DNA of 50,416 bases, taken from Thermoanaerobaculum sp. GTDB taxonomy: Bacteria > Acidobacteriota > Thermoanaerobaculia > Multivoradales > UBA5704. The position numbers were made by a program, and so were the translations under genes. How positions within the stretch are numbered: the first letter of the stretch is position 1; each line of letters starts with the position of its first letter. Under the pieces are notes generated by a model. It worked only from the letters and a program-made list of their open reading frames with translations. It searched no databases and had not been told where the DNA came from. Shown here piece by piece: positions 21,693 to 33,143 of the stretch. The stretch is taken from the NCBI GenBank assembly GCA_021154885.1, contig JAJKHS010000043.1, forward strand, positions 1 through 50,416. Reading direction: 5' to 3'.

Positions 21693-22691
21693 TCACAGGG
21701 CGGACGTGCCGGGCGGCACCAGCGCGTCGATGCGCGCTGCCTCCTCGTCGGTCAACTGGACGTCCACGGCGCCCAGGCTGTCCTCGAGCTGCCCCATCGT
21801 CCGCGGGCCGATGATGACAGAGGTCACCGCCGGATTGCGCAGGGCCCAGGCATTGGCGAAGCGGGCGAGCGAGACGCCCTTCTGCTCCGCCAGCGGGACG
21901 AGCTGCTCCACGACGTCGAGCCGGCGCTGGAACTTCGGGTTCTCGAGGTCGCCGATCCAGGCCGCGGCGCGCTGGCTGTCCTTGGGATTCCCCGTCTCCC
22001 GGCGGTACTTGCCCGTGAGCCAGCCACCTTCGAGCGGGCTCCAGACGATGTTGCCGAGGCCGAATTTCTGCGTCATCGGGAAGTGCTCCAGCTCCATCAC
22101 CCGGCGCAGGATGCTGTAGGGCGGCTGCAGCGAGACGAAGCGCTCCCAGCCGTGCAGCTCGCTGACCCACAGGGTCTCCACGATCTCCCAGGCCGCGAAG
22201 CGCTTCTCCCACAGCGCCTCGCCGGCGTAGTGGTTGGTGGAGAGGCCGAGGTAGCGCACCTTGCCCTGGCGCACGAGATCCGTCAGGACCGAGAGCGTCT
22301 CCTCGATCGGCGTCGTGGGGTCCGGACGGTGGATCTGGTAGAGGTCGATCACCTCCGTGCCCAGGCGGCGCAGGCTGTTCTCCACCTGCTCCTGGATGGC
22401 CTTGCGCGAGAGGCCGCGCTGGTTGGGGCCCGGCCCCACGGGTGCCCACACCTTGGTGGCGAGCACGGTCCCCTCGCGGCGGTCCTTGAGGGCCTTGCCG
22501 ACGATGACCTCCGATTCCCCCTCGGAGTAGCCGTTGGCCGTGTCGACGAAGTTGACGCCGGCATCCAGCGCGCGGTGGATGATGCGGACGCATTCGTCGT
22601 GATCCGTGTTGCCCCACTTGCCGAACATCATCGCCCCCAGGCAGAGGGGCGAGACCTTGAGGCCGGTAGGCCCTAGATTCCGGTATTCCAC
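21693..22691 (-). CDS. Aldo/keto reductase
   Basis: The 332-residue NADPH-dependent TIM-barrel reductase has the catalytic tetrad visible as D and Y in NFVDTANGYSEGESE, K in VLATKV and H in GLSTNHYAGEAL. The NADP-binding C-terminal segment is SVIIGPRTMGQLEDSLGAVD. Length and motifs are those of the AKR family that includes YajO-like and potassium-channel beta-subunit-like enzymes. The start is GTG at 22691, giving MEYRNLGPTGLKVSPLCLG. The SD is weak. It heads a two-gene unit with the aminotransferase. The carbonyl substrate is unknown. Confidence 0.88.
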   Translation of the reverse strand: MEYRNLGPTGLKVSPLCLGAMMFGKWGNTDHDECVRIIHRALDAGVNFVDTANGYSEGESEVIVGKALKDRREGTVLATKVWAPVGPGPNQRGLSRKAIQEQVENSLRRLGTEVIDLYQIHRPDPTTPIEETLSVLTDLVRQGKVRYLGLSTNHYAGEALWEKRFAAWEIVETLWVSELHGWERFVSLQPPYSILRRVMELEHFPMTQKFGLGNIVWSPLEGGWLTGKYRRETGNPKDSQRAAAWIGDLENPKFQRRLDVVEQLVPLAEQKGVSLARFANAWALRNPAVTSVIIGPRTMGQLEDSLGAVDVQLTDEEAARIDALVPPGTSAL

Positions 22692-22756
22692 GCGTTCAAC
22701 CCCCGTTTCGAAGATCCCCGCTCGCCGGCGCGGCCGGGCCTATTATGGACCACCCG

Positions 22757-22910
22757 GCCGGGCCCTCACCCCCTGACCCCCTCTCCCGCCCCCTCCCACC
22801 CCCTCACCGGGAGAGGGGGAACGCAATCCGAACCGTTCCTGCCTTTCTCCCTCTTCTCCCGGGGAGGGGGGTGGCGAGGGGGCGGGAGAAGAGGGTCGGG
22901 GTGATGAGGG
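22757..22910. repeat. Complete copy of the G/C-rich interspersed inverted repeat
   Basis: The left arm (ccctcaccccctgaccccct and on through cctcaccgggagaggggg) and the right arm (ctcttctcccggggagg through gggtcggggtgatgaggg) are imperfect reverse complements of about 55-60 bp. They are separated by roughly 30 bp of less biased sequence (aacgcaatccgaaccgttcc). It fills the gap between the EAL-protein gene 3' end and the aldo/keto reductase promoter side. It resembles the copies at both window edges and near 27990. No gene is present. Confidence 0.7.
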
Positions 22911-22911
22911 T

Positions 22912-24984
22912 CTACCCCGTACCGGTCAGCAGAAATTCCGCCCGCCGGATGCGCTCGTCGACGCTGCCGTGGAGGATCAGCTCCCGGCACTCGAAGGCGG
23001 GGAGAGGCGGGCTGAAGAGGTAGCCCTGAAAGCGGTCGCAGCCCAGGCCCTCCAGCCAGCGCCACTGCTCCCGGGTCTCCACCCCCTCGGCGATGACGCC
23101 GAGCCCGAGGCTCACCGCCAGCGCGATCACGGCCGCCGCCACCTCTTCGCCGCCGTGCCCTCGCCCGAGGGTGTGGACGAAGGAGCGGTCCACCTTCAGC
23201 GTGTCGATGGGGAAGGTGGTCAGGTAGGAGAGGGACGAGTAGCCGGTGCCGAAGTCGTCGATGGCGATGCGCACGCCCAGGTCCTTGAGGCCGCGCAGCA
23301 TGCCGAGCGTCGCCCCGGCGTTGTGCATGGCGAGCGTCTCGGTGATCTCCAGCTCGAGGGAGAACGGCGGCAGGCCCGTCTCCGCCAGCACGCCCTGGAT
23401 ACGCTGCAGGAGATCCGGCTGCTGGAAGGAGCGGGGCGAGAGGTTCACCGCCAGCCGCAGCTCCGAGGCTCCGGCGACTCGCCACTCCTGGACCTCCCGG
23501 CAGGCCTGGCGCAGCACCCAGAGGTCCAGGGGCACGGCGAGGCCGGAGGCGTCGGCGAGCCAGAGGAACTCGCCCGGCGTCATCAGCCCGCGCACGGGGT
23601 GGCGCCAGCGCAGCAGCGCCTCCACCCCTTCGAGCACGCGCCGCTCCGAGTCCAGCACCGGCTGGTAGAAGAGCACCAGCTCGCCGGGCTCCTGGGCCAG
23701 CGCCTTGCGCAGGTCCGCCTCCAGGGCGAGCTGCTCCAGGGTGTTGGAGTCCATGCTCGCGGTGAAGATCTGATAATCGTCCCGCCGCGTCTCCTTGGCC
23801 CGGTACATGGCGATCTCGGCCCGCTTGAGGAGCGTTTCGGCGTCGCCGCCGTCCTCCGGGAAGCGGCTGATGCCCAGGCTGGCCGTCAGGTAGATCTCCC
23901 GTCCCTGGAGGGCGAAGGGGAGGCGGAGGATGGCCAGCAGCTTCTCGGCCATGCGGCAGAGCGCGGCCTCGCCTTCCACCGCCGGCAGCAGCACGGCGAA
24001 CTCGTCCGCCGCCACCCGGGCCAGCAGGTCGGTGCCCCCGAGGCTGGTCCGCAGCCGCTCCGCCACCGACCGCAGCAGCTCGTCGCCGGAACGGTTGCCC
24101 AGCGACTCGTTGACGATCTTGAAGCGGTCCAGGTCGAGGAAGAGCACCGCCACCCGCTCGCCGCGAGGCTCCGCGCGTTCGAGGGCCCCTCTCAGCGACT
24201 GCACCAGGAGATTGCGGTTGGGCAGGTCGGTAAGGGGGTCGTGGTATGCCAGGTGCTCGATGCGGTCCGCGGTGGCCAGCACCCGCTGGCGCTCGTCCTC
24301 CAGCAGCCAGACGACCATGCCGATCCCGATCAGCGCCTCGAACAGGAAATCGAACGGGCTGAGATAGGCGACGTAGGACAGGGACCCGGTGACGAAATTC
24401 TGCACGACGACGATCGCGAGGTAGTGGAGCTGATGGAGACCGAAGAGCAGGAAGGAGAACGCCACCATGCGGCGCCCGATCCCGGACACGGGCGCGCGGT
24501 GGCTGCGCCAGACGCCCCAGCTCGCGACGACGAACGCCACCCCCTGGAGGAGGAGCCGCAGGCCCACCCGCGCCACTTCCCGGAGATAGGGACTGAAGCC
24601 GAGCGAGGTGACGGTTACGATCACCGCGAGCAGGGCGAGGCCGGCGAGCACGGTCGTCCGCAGGCGCGCCGGGAGCGCTTTCTCGGTGACCACCTCCCAG
24701 GTGCCGAACAGCAGCAGCACCGCCTGCCAGTAGCCCGCCGCCAGCCCGGCGGTGGAGATGGCGAGGCGCAGCGGCGGCGGCACCCCCAGGTGGGAGAAAT
24801 AGAGGAGCAGCGCCACCGCGCCCCCGGCCTGGGAGACGCAGAAGGCCCACCAGCTCCAGGCCCAGGTGAGGAGATATCGCCGCCCATAGGTACGGTGAAA
24901 GCCGGCGAGGATCATCGCCAGGACGATGGCCCCCAAGGCTTGAGCGAGATTGCTCGTGAAGATCACGAGCGTGCTGCTGATCAT
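22912..24984 (-). CDS. Membrane cyclic-di-GMP phosphodiesterase with degenerate GGDEF and intact EAL
   Basis: The 690-residue protein has about seven predicted membrane helices in residues 8-228. A GGDEF-type domain (about 245-405) carries AADEF (325-329) in place of GGDEF and lacks the RxxD inhibitory site, so it should not make cyclic di-GMP; it may bind GTP allosterically. The EAL domain (about 420-675) keeps EALLR (455-459), AVNLSP with N514, the ELEITET acidic residues, DDFGTG (576-581), LKVD and EGVET (633-637), and should hydrolyse cyclic di-GMP. The ATG at 24984 is 33 nt after the kinase-like gene's stop. It is third in a likely operon with the kinase-fold and MscS-FHA genes. Confidence 0.9.
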   Translation of the reverse strand: MISSTLVIFTSNLAQALGAIVLAMILAGFHRTYGRRYLLTWAWSWWAFCVSQAGGAVALLLYFSHLGVPPPLRLAISTAGLAAGYWQAVLLLFGTWEVVTEKALPARLRTTVLAGLALLAVIVTVTSLGFSPYLREVARVGLRLLLQGVAFVVASWGVWRSHRAPVSGIGRRMVAFSFLLFGLHQLHYLAIVVVQNFVTGSLSYVAYLSPFDFLFEALIGIGMVVWLLEDERQRVLATADRIEHLAYHDPLTDLPNRNLLVQSLRGALERAEPRGERVAVLFLDLDRFKIVNESLGNRSGDELLRSVAERLRTSLGGTDLLARVAADEFAVLLPAVEGEAALCRMAEKLLAILRLPFALQGREIYLTASLGISRFPEDGGDAETLLKRAEIAMYRAKETRRDDYQIFTASMDSNTLEQLALEADLRKALAQEPGELVLFYQPVLDSERRVLEGVEALLRWRHPVRGLMTPGEFLWLADASGLAVPLDLWVLRQACREVQEWRVAGASELRLAVNLSPRSFQQPDLLQRIQGVLAETGLPPFSLELEITETLAMHNAGATLGMLRGLKDLGVRIAIDDFGTGYSSLSYLTTFPIDTLKVDRSFVHTLGRGHGGEEVAAAVIALAVSLGLGVIAEGVETREQWRWLEGLGCDRFQGYLFSPPLPAFECRELILHGSVDERIRRAEFLLTGTG

Positions 24985-25017
24985 GTGGCGCTATCTTAGT
25001 GCATCGCGGACTGCGAT

Positions 25018-25971
25018 CTACCGCAACAGGAAAAACGCCAAAGCCAGCAGGGCCAGCACGGCGAGAGCGATTCCCGCATAGAGCAACGTCCTCTTGCCGC
25101 CGCCTTCGCCGCCCCGCAGCAGGGAGCCCGCCTCGCGGATCTCGGTGAGCACCCGCAGGCGCAGGGTCTCCTCCAGCCGCTCCAGGGCCGCCAGCAGGTC
25201 CTGGGCGCTGGCGTAGCGCTCGTCGGGCCGGCGGCCGAGACAGCGCAGGGCCACCACGTCCACCTCGGACGGCACGTCCGGATTGAGCTGGCTCGGCAGG
25301 CCGAACTTGGGGCCGGGCGAGCGGCCGGTGAGCATCTCGTGGAAGATGGCGCCGGCCGAGTAGAGGTCCGCCCGGGCGTCGACCGCGGCCTTGTTGTCCA
25401 TGGTCTCGGGCGCCAGGTAATAGAGGGCGCCGAGGCGGATCTCGCCGGTGGAGAGCGTCGCCGTGAGGCTCTGGGCGGCGATCGACTCGAAGCCGCTGGC
25501 CCCCAGGTCGGAGATCTTGACGGTGGCGAAGTCGGGCGAGACCAGGACGTTGCGCGGCGTGAGGTTGCGGTGCACCCAGCCGTTCTGGTGGGCGTGCGCC
25601 AGCCCGCGGCAGACCCCCCGCATCACGGCGAACGCCTCGGGGAGGGAGACGCGCCGGGCTTTCAGCGCGCGGTCGAGGGACGTCCCCTCCACCATTTCCA
25701 TGGCGACGTAGAGCCGGTCGCCGTGCTGGCCCGTCCCCAGGACGTGCACCAGGTGCGGGTGCCGGGTGACGGGGGCCACGGCGGCGAGCTCGCGATGGAA
25801 GCGCTCGACTGCGGCGGGATCCTCCGTCAGGCGGCGCGGGAAGAGCTTGAGGGCGACCGGCCGCCCCTTGGCGTCCTCCGCCCGATAGACCGTGGACTGC
25901 CCGGCCTTGCCGAGCAATTCGCGCACGCGATAGGGACCGATGGCTTCAGGAATGGTCGGTGGCTGTGGCAT
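25018..25971 (-). CDS. Tail-anchored Ser/Thr kinase-fold protein, predicted pseudokinase
   Basis: The 317-residue protein has a Hanks-type kinase fold: glycine loop LLGKAGQSTVY, VALK with K42, alpha-C Glu61, DLG at 155-157 and APE at 187-189. The catalytic loop reads HRNLTPRN (134-141). The essential HRD Asp is Asn136, and the usual Lys is Thr138, so phosphotransfer is predicted to be lost or strongly reduced while ATP binding could remain. One membrane helix at about 295-316 anchors the kinase fold on the cytosolic side, with no extracytoplasmic domain. It starts 12 nt after the MscS-FHA gene and precedes the EAL gene. The neighbouring FHA domain suggests a phospho-dependent partnership. Confidence 0.88.
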   Translation of the reverse strand: MPQPPTIPEAIGPYRVRELLGKAGQSTVYRAEDAKGRPVALKLFPRRLTEDPAAVERFHRELAAVAPVTRHPHLVHVLGTGQHGDRLYVAMEMVEGTSLDRALKARRVSLPEAFAVMRGVCRGLAHAHQNGWVHRNLTPRNVLVSPDFATVKISDLGASGFESIAAQSLTATLSTGEIRLGALYYLAPETMDNKAAVDARADLYSAGAIFHEMLTGRSPGPKFGLPSQLNPDVPSEVDVVALRCLGRRPDERYASAQDLLAALERLEETLRLRVLTEIREAGSLLRGGEGGGKRTLLYAGIALAVLALLALAFFLLR

Positions 25972-25983
25972 CGCTCTCGAAGA

Positions 25984-27279
25984 TCAATCGATTTCAAAGA
26001 TCATAACCGTGTCGCCGATCGCGATGCGGTCGAAGGGCCTGAGCACCGCCCGCTCGGCCGGCCTGCCGTTGACCCGCGTGCCGTGGCTGCTGCCCAGGTC
26101 GGTCATCACCCAGGCGCCGTCCTCCCAGGCGAGCCGGAGGTGCTCCTTGCTGGCGTTGGGATCGGTGAGGGCGAGGCCGCAGGCGCGGGAGCGGCCCACC
26201 GTGGCCGGCTGCGCGCCGTCGAGAGCCAGCGAGCGGCCGCGCTCCGCCCCTTCGGCCACGTAGAGCTGGGCCGGCGGCGGCCCTCCCTGTGCCGCGCGCC
26301 GCGCCGCGGCGTGCCGCGGGTGCTCCGGCCGCGAGATCTCCAGCGTCTGGATGGGGTAGGGGATGACGATCCCCTCCTTGTGGAACTCCTCCCAGACGCG
26401 GGCCCGCACCTCGCTGTCGATGCGCGGCCCCTGCGCCATGTCCTCGATCCAGATGCGCAGCTCGTAGAGGACGGCGCTGGCCTCGAAGGCGAGGACGTAG
26501 ACCTCCGGCGCCGGCTTGTCCAGCACCCCCGGCACGCCGGCGGCGCAGTCGAGCAGCACCCGGCGCACGTGGTAGGGCGGCTCGTCGAAGTGGGCCGGAA
26601 CCTTGATCCGCTCCATGTGCAGCGGATGGGGGTAGTAGTAGTTCAGCACCCGTTCGTCGGCCAGCTTGCTGTTGGGGATCACCAGGTTGTCGTTGTCGCG
26701 CGTCCGCAGGTGGGTGGTGCGCCAGGTGATGGCCATCACCCGCCCTTCCTGCTCGCCCACCCGGATCCAGTCGTTGATGCGGAACGGCTTCTCGACGCTG
26801 ATCACCAGGCCGGCGAAGAAGTTGCCGAGGATGGGCTGGAGGGCGAGGCCCAGCACCAGCGAGGTCACAGCGCTGGTGGCGATGAGCGGCGCCACGTCGA
26901 GCCTGGGGAACGAGATGCGCAGCGTCACCAGGGCGGTGACCAGGTAGACCAGGAGCATGGTCACGGCCGGCAGGAGCGGCGGCAGGCGCATGCCGCGGCG
27001 CGCCGTCAGGTGGACTTCGAACAGGTACAACCCCAGCAGCCGGAAGACCGTGATGAGCCCGAGGAAGAGGGCGGCCCAGGCCAGGGCCTCCGCCAGCGCC
27101 GCCGGCTGCCAGGCGGGATCGAGCAGGCGGAAGACCTCGAGCGCCGCCACTGCGGCCCCCACGTAGAGGGGGAAGGCGAGCTGGCGCATCCAGAAGAAGC
27201 GCCGGCCGAGCGCGGCCACGGCCACGATCAGCAGCGCGAGCAGGCCGGCGCTGCCCAGTACGGCGAGGGTCATCCACAA
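25984..27279 (-). CDS. MscS-type mechanosensitive channel fused to a C-terminal FHA domain
   Basis: The 431-residue inner-membrane protein has four or five predicted helices (about 4-22, 35-52, 62-85, 103-122, 128-160). The last contains the small-residue pore-lining pattern and leads into LALQPILGNFFAGLVI and EKPFRINDWIRVG, the MscS beta domain. The vestibule domain continues to about 312 (IPYPIQTLEI). Residues about 337-431 are an FHA phosphothreonine-binding domain with GRS (362-364), SKEH (377-380) and LGSSHGTRVNG (395-405). The start is TTG at 27279 with ggagg 7 nt upstream; an ATG two codons in is possible. It leads the operon with the pseudokinase and EAL genes. Confidence 0.88.
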   Translation of the reverse strand: MWMTLAVLGSAGLLALLIVAVAALGRRFFWMRQLAFPLYVGAAVAALEVFRLLDPAWQPAALAEALAWAALFLGLITVFRLLGLYLFEVHLTARRGMRLPPLLPAVTMLLVYLVTALVTLRISFPRLDVAPLIATSAVTSLVLGLALQPILGNFFAGLVISVEKPFRINDWIRVGEQEGRVMAITWRTTHLRTRDNDNLVIPNSKLADERVLNYYYPHPLHMERIKVPAHFDEPPYHVRRVLLDCAAGVPGVLDKPAPEVYVLAFEASAVLYELRIWIEDMAQGPRIDSEVRARVWEEFHKEGIVIPYPIQTLEISRPEHPRHAAARRAAQGGPPPAQLYVAEGAERGRSLALDGAQPATVGRSRACGLALTDPNASKEHLRLAWEDGAWVMTDLGSSHGTRVNGRPAERAVLRPFDRIAIGDTVMIFEID

Positions 27280-27320
27280 GGCGGCACCTCCGGAGGAGAC
27301 GGGGAGATTCTATCCCGGCC

Positions 27321-27351
27321 TTTACCGCGAGGCCCGCCGGCGCGCTAGAAT
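27321..27351 (+). promoter_or_regulatory. Candidate promoter of the DinB-family gene
   Basis: TTTACC (27321-27326) and TAGAAT (27346-27351) match the consensus at 4/6 and 5/6 positions but are 19 bp apart, slightly longer than ideal. The start codon lies 43 nt after the -10. It shares the short gap with the divergent MscS-FHA gene. Confidence 0.35.
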
Positions 27352-27393
27352 CCCCCGGTCATTCAGCATCCACACATCCACAAAGGAGAGGTC

Positions 27394-27987
27394 ATGAGAA
27401 GATTTTTCGGTTCGACGGCTGTCCTGGCCCTGGCGCTCGCCCTGGCGCTGCCGGTCCTGGCCCAGGACAAGGCGATGGAGAAGAAGGCGGAGGCGAGGCC
27501 TGCGGCGGCGGCCGCTGCCGGCGGCGCCAAGGCCGACCTGCTGCGCAGCCTCGGGGACGCTCAGAAGAAGCTCATCTCCCTGGCCGAGGCCATACCGGCC
27601 GAGAAGTACACCTGGCGCCCCGGCGAGGGCGTGCGCTCGGTGGGCGAGGTCTTCGCCCACGTGTCGGGCGCCAACTACTTCATCCCCACCCTCTGGGGAG
27701 CCAAGATGCCCGCCGGCGTCGATCCCCGTGGCTTCGAGAAGGAGGGGGGCGACAAGGCCAAGACGGTCGACACGCTCAAGAAATCGTTCGACCACGTCAC
27801 GCAGGCCATCCAGAGCGTGCCCGACGCCGACCTGGGCAAGGCGGTCAAGATCTTCGACCATGAGGGCACCTACCGGGAGGCGATCCTCGTCGTCGTCAGC
27901 CACGCCCACGAGCACCTCGGCCAGTCGATCGCCTATGCGCGCTCGAACGGCGTCGTGCCGCCGTGGAGCCAGAAGGGCGGGATGTAG
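27394..27987 (+). CDS. Secreted DinB-family protein
   Basis: The 197-residue protein starts with a signal peptide (about 1-23, LALPVLA-Q) and an Ala-rich linker. A four-helix DinB/YfiT domain follows from about residue 48. Candidate metal ligands are His in EVFAHVSGANY and the pair in VVSHAHEHLGQSIAYAR, the usual three-His arrangement. The closing GVVPPWS is typical of the family. Members include thiol-dependent transferases, but secreted forms are mostly uncharacterised. The start at 27394 has aaaggagag with good spacing. It stands alone between the signalling operon and the HTH-TPR locus. Confidence 0.85.
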   Translation: MRRFFGSTAVLALALALALPVLAQDKAMEKKAEARPAAAAAAGGAKADLLRSLGDAQKKLISLAEAIPAEKYTWRPGEGVRSVGEVFAHVSGANYFIPTLWGAKMPAGVDPRGFEKEGGDKAKTVDTLKKSFDHVTQAIQSVPDADLGKAVKIFDHEGTYREAILVVVSHAHEHLGQSIAYARSNGVVPPWSQKGGM

Positions 27988-28060
27988 GCCCCTCACCGGG
28001 AGAGACAAATCGAGCCCCTCTCCTTCAGGAGAGGGGCTGGGGGAGCCGCCCCCCTCACCC
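27988..28060. repeat. Short copy of the G/C-rich interspersed repeat
   Basis: Blocks cctcaccgggagaga, gcccctctccttcaggagagg and cccccctcacccc follow the DinB stop and run into the convergent regulator's 3' end. The central part, cccctctccttcaggagagggg, is a near-perfect hairpin and may terminate transcription from both sides. Confidence 0.5.
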
Positions 28061-29449
28061 CATCCGGCGCAGCTCCTGCAACCAGCCGCGGGCCAGCTCG
28101 GCAGTGACAGTCTCCTGGCGCACGGCTTCGCAGAACAGCTCGACGGAAGCCAGGGTCTCCCGGGCGACCCGCTGGGCGGCGAAGATCGGGGCCAGCTCGG
28201 CGGCGATTTCCCGGACCTCCGCGGTCCGCCCATCCTCCAGATAGAGCACCGCCAGCTCCAGGGTGGCGACCGCCGTGTCGTAGGCAATCTCGCGGCGGAG
28301 GAATTCTCTCCGCACCCGGTCGAGAAGCTCCTCGGCCTCGGCGCGCCGGCCGAAGCCGGCCTCTATCTTGGATTGCAGCCACAGCACGCGCACGCTGTCG
28401 AGCGGGCGGCCGCCCGACTCTGCCATGGCCTGCACCTGGGGTAGCCGCTCCGCGGCTTCCTCGAATTTCTCCAGGTGCACGAGGTTGACGATGCGATTGA
28501 AGCGCACGCCGAAGAGGAGCCGCGGCTCGCGCGCTTCATTGATCCGTGCCTCGGCGTCTTGCAGCGTGGCGAGGGCCTGCTCGGGCTCGCCCTGCTGTTC
28601 GAGCGTGAATGCCTTGTTGAGAAGTATGCGGCTTGCGGTCTCAGACGAGGCGAGAGCGAGGGCTTTGTCGTGCAGCTTCAAGGCTTCGGCGAAACATCCC
28701 TGGTGCCTGCGAAGCGACGCCTGCCCGTCCGGCAGGCGCCAGTGCGCGAGGAGGATGGGCGTGGCGCCGGCCCAAGCCGCCCAAAGCTTCTCGGCACGCT
28801 GAAAGGCCGTCTCGGCGCCCGGCAACGCTCCGCCCACCCTTCGCGCGTTGCCGAGGAAGATCCAACAGTAGCTTTCAAGCTTCAACCGGCGGGCTCCCTT
28901 CCCCGGCGCGCGTTCGGCGGCGCGGAGGGCCAGCTCGGCGAGCTTCAAGGCCCGCTCCGCCTCGCCGGCTGCGACCGCTTCGCTCTCGTGGCAGAGTCGC
29001 TCGACGAAGCGCCAGACCTTCACCTCCCAGGAAACTTCAGCAGGCGCAGGTGGCATTGAAGGGTCGGCCAGCTCCACGAGGAGGGCGGCCAGCGCCGCCC
29101 GGCGAACGTCGGACAGGACATCGTCGAGCGCGGCGACGGCCGGTTCCAGCTCCGTGAAAAGCCCGGCGGTGAAGCGGGCCAGGGCAGCGCGGCCGGCGCG
29201 GACGGCCGGCAGGTGGCAGGCCTCGACGAGCTCGAGCGGCAGCCTCGAGCTCTTCACGATCTTCTCGTAGCTCTTACGCGGCATCCGCCGGCCCTTCTCG
29301 AAACGCCGTACCGAACTGGAGTCGAGGCCGGCTTCGGCCGCCAGCTCCTCCTGGGTCCAGCCGTGGAAGGCCCGCAGGTGCGGCAGCAGCACTCTCTGGT
29401 CCTCCGGTTTCACGGGGTCTTTCGTCCTCGCCTCGATGGGATCTTTCAT
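28055..29449 (-). CDS. HTH-TPR transcriptional regulator (RRNPP-like architecture), intact paralogue
   Basis: The 464-residue protein has an N-terminal XRE-type helix-turn-helix (about 22-58, WTQEELAAEAGLDSSSVRRF). About 380 residues of TPR-like helical repeats follow, including ALKLHDKALALASSETA, LLNKAFTLEQQGEPEQALAT and FEEAAERLPQVQAM. This DNA-binding-plus-TPR arrangement is that of RRNPP peptide-responsive regulators. The start is ATG at 29449 with gaggag upstream, preferred over GTG at 29470. It is transcribed divergently from the secreted repeat-peptide gene at 29559 and lies parallel to a frameshifted paralogue. An inverted repeat at 29487-29504 is a candidate operator. The ligand is unknown; the peptide is a hypothesis. 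Confidence 0.85.
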   Translation of the reverse strand: MKDPIEARTKDPVKPEDQRVLLPHLRAFHGWTQEELAAEAGLDSSSVRRFEKGRRMPRKSYEKIVKSSRLPLELVEACHLPAVRAGRAALARFTAGLFTELEPAVAALDDVLSDVRRAALAALLVELADPSMPPAPAEVSWEVKVWRFVERLCHESEAVAAGEAERALKLAELALRAAERAPGKGARRLKLESYCWIFLGNARRVGGALPGAETAFQRAEKLWAAWAGATPILLAHWRLPDGQASLRRHQGCFAEALKLHDKALALASSETASRILLNKAFTLEQQGEPEQALATLQDAEARINEAREPRLLFGVRFNRIVNLVHLEKFEEAAERLPQVQAMAESGGRPLDSVRVLWLQSKIEAGFGRRAEAEELLDRVRREFLRREIAYDTAVATLELAVLYLEDGRTAEVREIAAELAPIFAAQRVARETLASVELFCEAVRQETVTAELARGWLQELRRMG

Positions 29450-29486
29450 CCTCGGCTCCTCTGCGTGCACACTCAGCGGGCACGGC

Positions 29487-29948: not shown

Positions 29949-31422
29949 TCACTCCTCGAAGTGGAGCCGCGGGTTGTGTTGCGCCCTTTCAAGATACCGC
30001 AGGATGCGCCGCGCCAGCTCCACGGTGAGCCGCTCCGCCTCGGCCGCATCGCAGAAGAGACGCAATGCCTTCTCGGCTTCCTGGTGCACGCGCTGCGCCT
30101 CAAAGATCCAGAGCGTCTGCTTTGCCAGGGCCTTGACCTCCGCGAGCCGCCCCTGGCCGCGGTAGAGGACGGCCAGCTCCAGGGTCGCCTTCGCGAAATC
30201 GTAGGCGATGTTCCGTCCGCGGAAGGCCTGCCGCACCTGCTGGAAGGCCGCTTCAGCCTCTGGCTCGCGCCCGAGTCCGGCGTCGATCCGGCCGCGGAGC
30301 CAGAGGACCCGATACCGGTTCAGCTCCTGCCCGAGCTCCAGCGCCATCTCCCCAATCTGACCCAGCAGGGCCTCCGCTTCCGGGAATTTCTGCAAGTGGC
30401 AGAGGCAAACCGCGCGATTGAAGCGCAGGCCGAAAAGGCATCGCGGTTCGCGCTGCCCGTCGATCCACGGCTCCGCCTCGGCCAACGTCGCGAGCGCCTG
30501 CTCAGGCTTGCCCATCTGCTCCAGCGTATACGCCTTATTGAGTAGAATTCGCCCTATCGACTCTGGCGGGGCGAGCGCTAGGGCCTCGGCGTGCAGCTCC
30601 AGGGCACGGATGAATTCGCCCTGAGGGCGGCGCCAGGAGGCTTCGCCGTCGGGCAGGCGCCACTCGGCCAGGAGGCCCGGATCGGCGGCGGCGCCGGCTT
30701 CCCAAAGCTCCCGCGCCAGGGCGAAGCCCTCCGCCGTGGACGGCATGTCGCCGCCCACCCGCCGGGCGTTCGCGATGAAAAGCCAGACGTAGCCTTTCAG
30801 GCGAAGGAGCCATACCGGGTCGTCGTCCGCCAGCTCGGCCGCCCGCAGGGCCAGCGCCGCCAGCTCCTGGGCCTTCTCGACGCTATCCGCCGCGGCCCGT
30901 TCGCTCTCGTGGCAGAGGCGCTCCGCGACCGCCCACTGGTGATAAGCTCGCCGAGAGCTCGACGAGCTCGCGCCGCGCCCTTGGGTCGGGCTCTTCGAGA
31001 AGCCAGCGCACGAGGTCTTCGGCACTGCTGCGGTCGCGCCGCGTCCGCGAGGCGCACACGAGCTTCACGAGGTGCTCGTCGATCACGGCCAGCTCCGCCT
31101 GGGCCAGCCGGGAGGCCACCTCACGGAGGAGGCGGCGCTCGGCGGGCCTGGGGTCCACGGGCGAAAGCGGTCGCGGCTCCGGCCGGACCGTGGCCCGGAT
31201 GATGCCGAAAAGGACGGCGTCGACGTCCTCGGGCTCGTAGCCCATGACCGCGCCGAGCTCGACCACCTTCTCGCGCGATGGGAGATCGCGGCCAAGCTCG
31301 TAGCGGGAGATCAGCCCTTTTGACATCCCACTTGAAGCCGCCAGGTCTTCGCCGGTCAAGCCGCGCGCCCGGCGCAAGGTGGTCAGGGTGACACTCAACG
31401 GATGGGGAACCGGTCGTGGCAT
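29949..31422 (-). pseudogene. HTH-TPR regulator paralogue disrupted by a single frameshift
   Basis: Translation from the ATG at 31422 (SD gaggag) gives an HTH (TGEDLAASSGMSKGLISRYE) and continues to about 30945. The coherent sequence then moves to the +1 frame: LLEEPDPRARRELVELSA joins AYHQWAVAERLCHESERA if one base is skipped at roughly 30940-30960. The rest is TPR repeats closely parallel to the neighbouring paralogue (LPDGEASWRRPQGEF versus LPDGQASLRRHQGCF). The restored protein would have about 490 residues. It is either a true pseudogene or a one-base assembly error. It is divergent from the 89-residue protein gene at 31622. Confidence 0.8.
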
Positions 31423-31492
31423 CGCTCTCCTCTCGTTCGTCTCCATCTATCAAGGTTGCCGCAGGCCGCTTTTCTGGGACATCGAAGAAGAA

Positions 31493-31904: not shown

Positions 31905-33143
31905 CTACTCCGGCGGGACCACCGGCGTCATGGAGACCGTCTGGTCTTCCTCGGCGTCGGCGGCCCGTTGCGCCGGGGTGCGGTGTCGGCCGGGGGCGGG
32001 GCCGACGACGCGGTCGCGCCCCTGGGACTTGGCCTGGTAGAGGCGCTGGTCGGCGCACTGCAGGATCTCGGCGGCGTTCTGGCCGTCGTCGGGCCAGAGG
32101 GCGACGCCGACGCTCACCGTCAGGCTCACCGGCTTCGCGCGGTTGGGCAGGTGGATCGGCTTGACCGCCAGCACGCGGCGGATGCGCTCCAGCAGGTCGG
32201 TGGCGCGGCCGCTCATCACCCCCGGCAGGACCAGGGCGAACTCCTCGCCGCCATAGCGCGCCACCACGTCCGTGGCGCGGCACGACTCGCGCAGCGTCTT
32301 CGCCACCGATTGCAGCGCCTCGTCGCCCCCGGCATGGCCGTAGGTGTCATTGAACTTCTTGAAGTGGTCGATGTCGATCATCGCCACGGCGAAGCGGCCG
32401 TCCTCCCGGCGGGCGAAGGCGATCTCCCGCTCGAGCTGCTCGCCGAACACGGCGCGGTTGAGCAGGCCGGTGAAGCGGTCGCGGGTGGAGAGCAGCCGCA
32501 GCTCCCGGGAGCGCACGACGAGGGTGGTGGCGAGGACCGTGGCGCCCAGGAGCTGCGCCATGCGCCAGAGTTGGGTGCTCCAGTGGAACTGGCCGTAAAG
32601 GTAGGGGGCGAAGGCCGCCGAGTTGAGGTTCCATCGCCAGTCGGCGTAGAGGACGACGGCGAGGTACTGGCTCACGGCCAGGGCGCCCGAGAGCAGGCAG
32701 ATGCGGGCGTCGTAGCGCAGGCTGGTGGCGGCGATGGCCAGGAGGTAGACGGGGAAGACCGCGAGGTTGTTCGTCGCCTCGTGAGGCCGGCCGAGGATCA
32801 GCGAGATGGTGAGCACGGCGCTCACCAGGCTGACGTCCAGCAGGCTGCTGGCGAAGCCGATCCAGGCCCGTCCCCAGTGGCGGTTGGTGGCGGAGTAGAG
32901 GGCGAGGGCGAGCCCCAGGCCGACAGTGGCGGCGGTGAGCAGGGCGAGGACGTCGCTGCCCGCCTTCTTCTGCAGCAGCAGCTCGCGCAGGGGGAAGAAG
33001 AGGAGGACGACGAAGGTCAGCAGGCGCAGGCCCGCCACCAGCAGCTCGCCGCCGAAGCCGGCGCTGGAGATCTCCTGCTCCGGCGCGCTCCAGACGCGGC
33101 GCCACAGAGGCGGCTCCGGCGTGGTGTAGTCCTGAACGCTCAT
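31905..33143 (-). CDS. Membrane diguanylate cyclase (GGDEF domain)
   Basis: The 412-residue protein has an N-terminal membrane region with about six helices between residues 33 and 210. A GGDEF domain then spans about 215-380. The active site is GGEEF (298-302), which is competent, and RATD (289-292) forms the RxxD product-inhibition site. It should therefore make cyclic di-GMP under feedback control. The proline-rich tail is probably disordered. The ATG at 33143 has only a G-rich tract upstream. It complements the EAL phosphodiesterase at 22912 and the MshEN-type protein at 37246. The input signal of the membrane region is unknown. Confidence 0.92.
   Translation of the reverse strand: MSVQDYTTPEPPLWRRVWSAPEQEISSAGFGGELLVAGLRLLTFVVLLFFPLRELLLQKKAGSDVLALLTAATVGLGLALALYSATNRHWGRAWIGFASSLLDVSLVSAVLTISLILGRPHEATNNLAVFPVYLLAIAATSLRYDARICLLSGALAVSQYLAVVLYADWRWNLNSAAFAPYLYGQFHWSTQLWRMAQLLGATVLATTLVVRSRELRLLSTRDRFTGLLNRAVFGEQLEREIAFARREDGRFAVAMIDIDHFKKFNDTYGHAGGDEALQSVAKTLRESCRATDVVARYGGEEFALVLPGVMSGRATDLLERIRRVLAVKPIHLPNRAKPVSLTVSVGVALWPDDGQNAAEILQCADQRLYQAKSQGRDRVVGPAPGRHRTPAQRAADAEEDQTVSMTPVVPPE

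Follow-up and report, generated by a model that had tools for sequence, protein, structure and literature searches.

The closest described counterparts of the genes reported here are known from mycobacteria. Rv1747 and PknF of Mycobacterium tuberculosis are described as the products of a two-gene operon for an FHA-bearing membrane transporter and a Ser/Thr kinase (PMC3908365), and in the MviN–FhaA system a membrane-linked pseudokinase that is phosphorylated by another kinase is reported to recruit an FHA domain (PMC12599244; PMC11898655). Among channels, members of the MscS family termed bCNG are described as cyclic-nucleotide gated in titles cited in PMC4560390. The locus studied here lies in a 50,416-nucleotide stretch (hereafter the window), which is contig C43 of the 8.2 Mb genome of Thermoanaerobaculum sp. 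Its minus strand carries genes for an MscS-type mechanosensitive channel with a C-terminal FHA domain (MscS-FHA), for a membrane-anchored kinase-fold protein and for a membrane GGDEF-EAL protein. The first two genes were found as a pair at every locus compared, and the features discussed below are as follows (genomes, contigs and loci are denoted by G, C and L numbers).

25984..27279, minus strand: gene for an MscS-type channel with a C-terminal FHA domain, 431 amino acids (open reading frame, Pfam and structure model); core of the conserved pair
26014..26202, minus strand: FHA domain of the channel, residues 360-422, with Gly362-Arg363, Ser377-x-x-His380, His399-Gly400 where N-G is usual, and Asn404-Gly405 (Pfam, structural relatives and alignment)
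25018..25971, minus strand: gene for a kinase-fold protein, 317 amino acids, predicted to be inactive, with a single C-terminal membrane-type helix at 294-316 (Pfam, alignment and structure model); core of the conserved pair
25564..25566, minus strand: Asn136, replacing the HRD catalytic aspartate (alignment)
25447..25449, minus strand: Thr175, candidate phospho-acceptor for the FHA domain (alignment)
22912..24984, minus strand: gene for a membrane GGDEF(AADEF)-EAL protein, 690 amino acids (Pfam); neighbour in the window's genus, outside the conserved unit

The pair resembles Rv1747–PknF in that an FHA-bearing membrane transport protein is coupled with a gene of the Ser/Thr kinase family. In Rv1747–PknF, however, the transporter is an ABC exporter bearing two FHA domains and the gene for the active kinase lies upstream, whereas the window-type pair has an MscS-type channel (Pfam identifies the transport part as MscS and not ABC), one FHA domain and a kinase-fold gene lying downstream, with catalytic residues lost at nine of 14 loci. 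MviN is a pseudokinase fused to a flippase and its FHA protein is separate, while here the channel itself bears the FHA domain and the pseudokinase is a protein of its own; no flippase domain was detected by Pfam in the kinase-fold protein of the window, which sets it apart from the MviN/ActPs3 architecture. The bCNG channels carry their cyclic-nucleotide-binding domain at the C-terminus, and their ligand is a nucleotide where that proposed for the window channel is a phosphoprotein. The MscS, MscK, MscM and YnaI proteins of Escherichia coli are relatives of the channel core by sequence and by Foldseek, with matched stretches that end before the FHA domain, and we know of no kinase partner for any of them. 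Full-text literature searches, with thin coverage of subscription journals, gave no description of an MscS-FHA channel/(pseudo)kinase pair among the matches listed, as judged on titles and abstract openings, and passages of PMC2754498 (Corynebacterium) treat MscS and FHA genes separately. The parts are known in mycobacteria in another arrangement, and no MscS-family channel acting in this way was found among the papers listed.

The channel protein was searched against 72 genomes of the order, of which 24 gave a match at 1e-30. Twelve of these matches extended to the end of the FHA domain (E <= 4.5e-103), and the other twelve stopped at residue 338 or before, short of it. Among 148 genomes of the class an MscS-FHA orthologue was present in the identical set of 12, which spans five families and seven genera, and a sample of 396 genomes of the phylum contained three, all within those 12. 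A scan of named genomes with two peptide patterns, which MscS-FHA fusions with a different channel core would escape, gave as closest matches metagenome-assembled Acidobacteriota labelled Thermoanaerobaculia, Holophagales, Acidobacteria and, once, Vicinamibacterales. A kinase-fold gene lies directly downstream of the MscS-FHA gene on the same strand in all 12 genomes of the order, and the same pair occurs at two further named-genome loci (L084 and L092), so that the pair is present at 14 of 14 loci, drawn from five families of the order plus two other assemblies. The nearest candidate start of the kinase gene overlaps the channel gene by 8-20 nucleotides at 11 of the loci and lies 4-12 nucleotides after it at the other three. 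The outer genes vary by locus: ten flanking proteins were taken from five loci, of which two had no Pfam match and eight were identified as a purine-synthesis enzyme, a sulfate permease, ThiG, a radical SAM protein, an AMP-binding enzyme, a CoA transferase, a cupin and an acetyltransferase. Judged informally, a chance origin of the pairing at all 14 loci is not plausible, and the adjacency together with the overlap well supports the view that the MscS-FHA channel and the (pseudo)kinase form a unit.

It should be noted that four of the kinase genes (G001, G017, G069 and G027) are interrupted by a contig end or contain a stretch of N, and that the channel of L092 is broken into two frames and was omitted from the FHA alignment, so that FHA counts refer to 13 loci and kinase counts to 14. 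Locus L091, a channel piece stopping at a contig end in the same assembly as L092, was excluded from the locus count. The MscS-FHA pieces of L091 and L092 overlap in their common part with a few residues different, and may represent two copies or two strains.

In the window itself the open reading frame coordinates agree with the initial annotation, which had described three consecutive minus-strand genes with gaps of 12 (channel–kinase) and 33 nucleotides (kinase–EAL); the start codon of the channel gene is provisional (TTG in the open reading frame list). Its recognition of a mechanosensitive channel with a C-terminal FHA domain was borne out by Pfam matches to MS_channel_2nd (78.5 bits), MS_channel_3rd (48.2 bits), FHA (PF00498; 52.6 bits against a cut-off of 20.7) and the overlapping FHA-like Yop-YscD_cpl (53.5 bits). 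The MscS superfamily domains PF00924 and PF21082 are above cut-off in the window protein, and all 12 aligned channels match both as well as FHA. The kinase-fold protein (Pkinase, PF00069; 114.3 bits) likewise has the terminal helix and the missing HRD aspartate that had been reported for it. The description of the third product as a membrane EAL protein was right as to the EAL domain (242.3 bits) and had left a GGDEF domain (152.6 bits) unnamed.

The model of the channel (predicted local distance difference test score, pLDDT, 75.5; predicted template modelling score, pTM, 0.36) shows five long helices, the pore helix among them, ahead of the MscS beta-domain, together with MscS-type strands and a C-terminal beta domain. 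Foldseek matched it to structures of MscS and YnaI at low whole-chain TM-scores (about 0.3), and at this pTM the model is too weak for placing the FHA domain. Solved relatives of the FHA domain by sequence include GarA, OdhI and TB39.8. The motifs GR, SxxH and NG are given as phosphothreonine-binding motifs of FHA domains (PMC1262709). Across the 13 aligned channels Gly362, Arg363, Ser377, Lys378, Gly400, Thr401 and Gly405 are invariant, with His380 kept in 12 and Asn404 in 11, such that GR and SxxH are both present in the family. The counterpart of NG is either His399-Gly400 at the N-G-T turn or Asn404-Gly405, and the source may mean either. By spacing it is probably the N-G-T turn at 399-400, in which case it is lacking from the window. 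Five residues including the asparagine of the N-G-T turn are named elsewhere as important for phosphothreonine binding (PMC5549992); the window domain keeps the first four of these and does not have the asparagine.

In the kinase-fold protein of the window Lys42 (VAIK) and Asp155 (DFG) are present and the HRD aspartate is replaced by Asn136, leaving it without the full residue set of an active Hanks-type Ser/Thr kinase. At least one catalytic residue has been lost at nine of the 14 aligned loci, at positions that differ by lineage: Lys42 in G003 and L084, Asp136 in G000, G001, G002, G003, G069 and G068, and Asp155 in G017, G018 and L084. All three are kept in the other five (G027, G028, G029, G045 and L092, the last reading DFS). 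In the trees, G068 clusters with G045 (0.99) and, in the kinase tree, L084 clusters with L092 (0.99), G045 and L092 both being intact; G017 joins G018 (1.00), and the window's family joins G069 (kinase tree 0.66, channel tree 0.94). It is likely that catalytic residues were lost three or more times separately, assuming an intact ancestor. The lysine of the HRD-x-Lys motif is an asparagine in nine of the 14 partners, including all five with an intact triad (the genes concerned are those of L072, L073, L075, L076, L077, L078, L079, L084 and L092). As a control, the kinases of the window genome were examined, in which 47 Pkinase-profile matches were found with the kinase-fold partner included and one protein counted in pieces; HRD-x-Lys was present in 27 of the best 30 of these 47, the remaining three not being read.

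Within the activation loop, Thr175 is kept in 13 of the 14 partners and is the sole invariant or all-but-one position across residues 153-184; it is not safely comparable with the paralogues of the window genome, most of which have their threonine at least one position further upstream in the alignment of the loop. The model of the kinase-fold protein (pLDDT 86, pTM 0.80) has its best fold match in mycobacterial PknB, with low confidence at 167-178, a stretch that includes Thr175, and a final helix at 294-316. The window protein stops at this helix. Five longer kinases (G028, G029, G018, L084 and L092) extend past it into TPR repeats, those of G029 being YbgF- and BamD-like below curated cut-offs. 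This TPR part probably lies in the periplasm and could act as an envelope sensor.

The third gene has a different distribution. Close full-length relatives of it were found in four of the 12 pair-bearing genomes, all in the window's family; in the remaining ones the matches listed span the GGDEF-EAL part only, with none in G069 at 1e-90. Searched by itself at 1e-70, the EAL part was matched in the same four genomes and in none of the other eight. The signature of the GGDEF domain reads AADEF in the window, G001 and G002, and GGDEF in G003. Only in the window's genus does the gene follow the pair, 33 nucleotides after the kinase gene in the window and 583 nucleotides after it in G002. In G003 it lies on contig C101 and the pair on C177, and in G001 the contig ends 250 nucleotides upstream of it, with no kinase sequence in that stretch. 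Relatives of the N-terminal membrane domain of the protein occur in 13 of the 72 genomes of the order, eight of which (G013, G014, G015, G037, G038, G039, G040 and G042) are without an MscS-FHA orthologue, and in G018, which carries the pair, the relative sits on another contig. The neighbourhood is simply retained within the genus, as the window, G001 and G002 share an aldo-keto reductase gene after the EAL gene. The three genes proposed in the initial annotation as one unit do occur together and in order elsewhere, in G002, but beyond the window's genus only the pair is conserved. From this placement the EAL gene appears to be a neighbour outside the conserved unit, and a link of the pair to cyclic di-GMP is not supported.

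In the window, G001 and G002 the start of the EAL gene is immediately preceded by a TAA(A/G)AT element, which hints at a promoter of its own. On visual inspection, the 583-nucleotide interval of G002 (L067:3784-4366) contains an inverted repeat around GAATAGCCTGGGG and lacks a long open frame, and a similar sequence lies shortly before the EAL gene in G001. A promoter scan of 22650-27400 gave no sigma-70-like site, and two terminator-like sites were found there, both within genes, where 1.2 would be expected.

Judged from rough NG86 ratios of non-synonymous to synonymous substitution (dN/dS), which between G001 and G002 are 0.22 for the kinase (245 codons compared, the G001 gene being cut), 0.23 for the channel and 0.36 for the EAL gene, the pseudokinase is under purifying selection, no stronger than that on the channel and weaker by some measures. 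Observed for the pair, then, are conserved pairing and overlap, the domain content, retention of the FHA Gly-Arg and Ser, loss of catalytic residues and purifying selection. The reading favoured here, to which we would give an even chance, is a two-gene module in which the FHA tail of the channel docks on the phosphorylated (pseudo)kinase. A threonine of the partner, the best candidate being Thr175, would become phosphorylated, by the partner itself in the lineages with an intact kinase and by another cellular kinase where the partner is a pseudokinase, as in the window's lineage. Other kinases could supply the phosphate there, given the 47 Pkinase-profile matches of the window genome. The FHA domains of the channel, presumably a heptamer, would then bind the partner, and this binding may alter channel opening or clustering. 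A docking partner fits better than an enzyme, because the overlap, the FHA Gly-Arg and Ser and the loop threonine are retained while the catalytic residues are lost at nine loci.

Several points weigh against this reading. L084 has no threonine at column 175, the nearest lying two residues earlier, and active kinases commonly carry a loop threonine too, so that the retention of Thr175 may partly be inheritance. Position 399 of the FHA domain, which by spacing probably corresponds to the Asn69 named as important for binding, is an asparagine in only three of 13 domains and a histidine in the window, which weakens the case for phosphothreonine reading without being decisive. The phosphorylated part of MviN is given in a review as its C-terminal tail. 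The kinase also evolves faster than the channel when compared with G003 (identity 50% against 67%; rough NG86 dN/dS between G000 and G003 of 0.54 against 0.37, with 0.54 for the EAL gene), and YN00, applied in two comparisons only, gave a kinase value of 0.067 against 0.037 for the channel between G001 and G002.

This faster evolution would also fit a scheme in which the partner, or its former active form, phosphorylates the channel and the FHA domain only recruits it, the activity having decayed in the window's genus to leave the pair as a remnant. All three catalytic residues at five loci and the description of Rv1747 as a PknF substrate (PMC3908365) agree with such an arrangement. It is nevertheless somewhat unlikely, as the gene, its adjacency, the FHA Gly-Arg and Ser and (at 13 of 14 loci) Thr175 persist while catalytic residues are lost at nine, the NG86 dN/dS between G001 and G002 is the same for pseudokinase and channel, and the catalytic-loop lysine is an asparagine even in the five intact partners. 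An alternative, in which the kinase-fold protein serves as a structural subunit without phosphate chemistry and the FHA domain either recognizes an unrelated phosphoprotein or has a role in channel assembly only, would accommodate both the lost catalytic residues and the sparse N-G-T-turn asparagine, but is improbable in view of the invariant Arg363 and Ser377 and of the near-universal Thr175. Least probable is the complex suggested in the initial annotation, which would connect membrane tension with phosphothreonine recognition and the breakdown of cyclic di-GMP. The gene order is alike in the window and G002 and the EAL residues appear intact, but the gene is detached from the pair in G003, distant from it in G002 and without a kinase before it in G001, its EAL part is unmatched in most pair-bearing genomes, and its N-terminal domain has relatives in genomes with no MscS-FHA orthologue. 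As a conserved unit the three-gene complex was rejected on this placement and distribution.

A defence-system reading was also dropped, as the matches of the kinase to 32 PADLOC families at 1e-10 (PD-T4-6, mad6 and others) are expected of a generic kinase domain; the channel and EAL proteins matched no PADLOC family at that threshold. Elsewhere in the window, a divergent DinB-family gene (27394-27987) upstream of the channel adjoins it in the four genomes of the window's family, and had no match at the remaining loci retrieved, some of which extend only a little way in that direction. It is followed by two helix-turn-helix and TPR regulator genes in tandem (28055-29470 and 29949-31446), the second spanning two overlapping frames (30883-31446 and 29949-31025) with a possible frameshift, and by another GGDEF-domain gene at 31908-33143, about 7 kb from the GGDEF-EAL gene.

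A wider proposal built on the docking of channel and partner is put forward tentatively, and is more doubtful than assured: a phospho-gated MscS-family pore that would be opened, closed or clustered when its FHA tails bind a phosphorylated membrane-anchored pseudokinase, a kinase having turned into a docking ligand probably three or more times independently, with other kinases acting through it. If this is true, it would represent a bacterial MscS-family channel directly controlled by phosphothreonine, coupling the release of turgor or envelope stress to Ser/Thr kinase signalling. The family, with members ranging from intact to dead kinases, would also be a natural setting for probing the non-catalytic roles of a kinase toward its partner.

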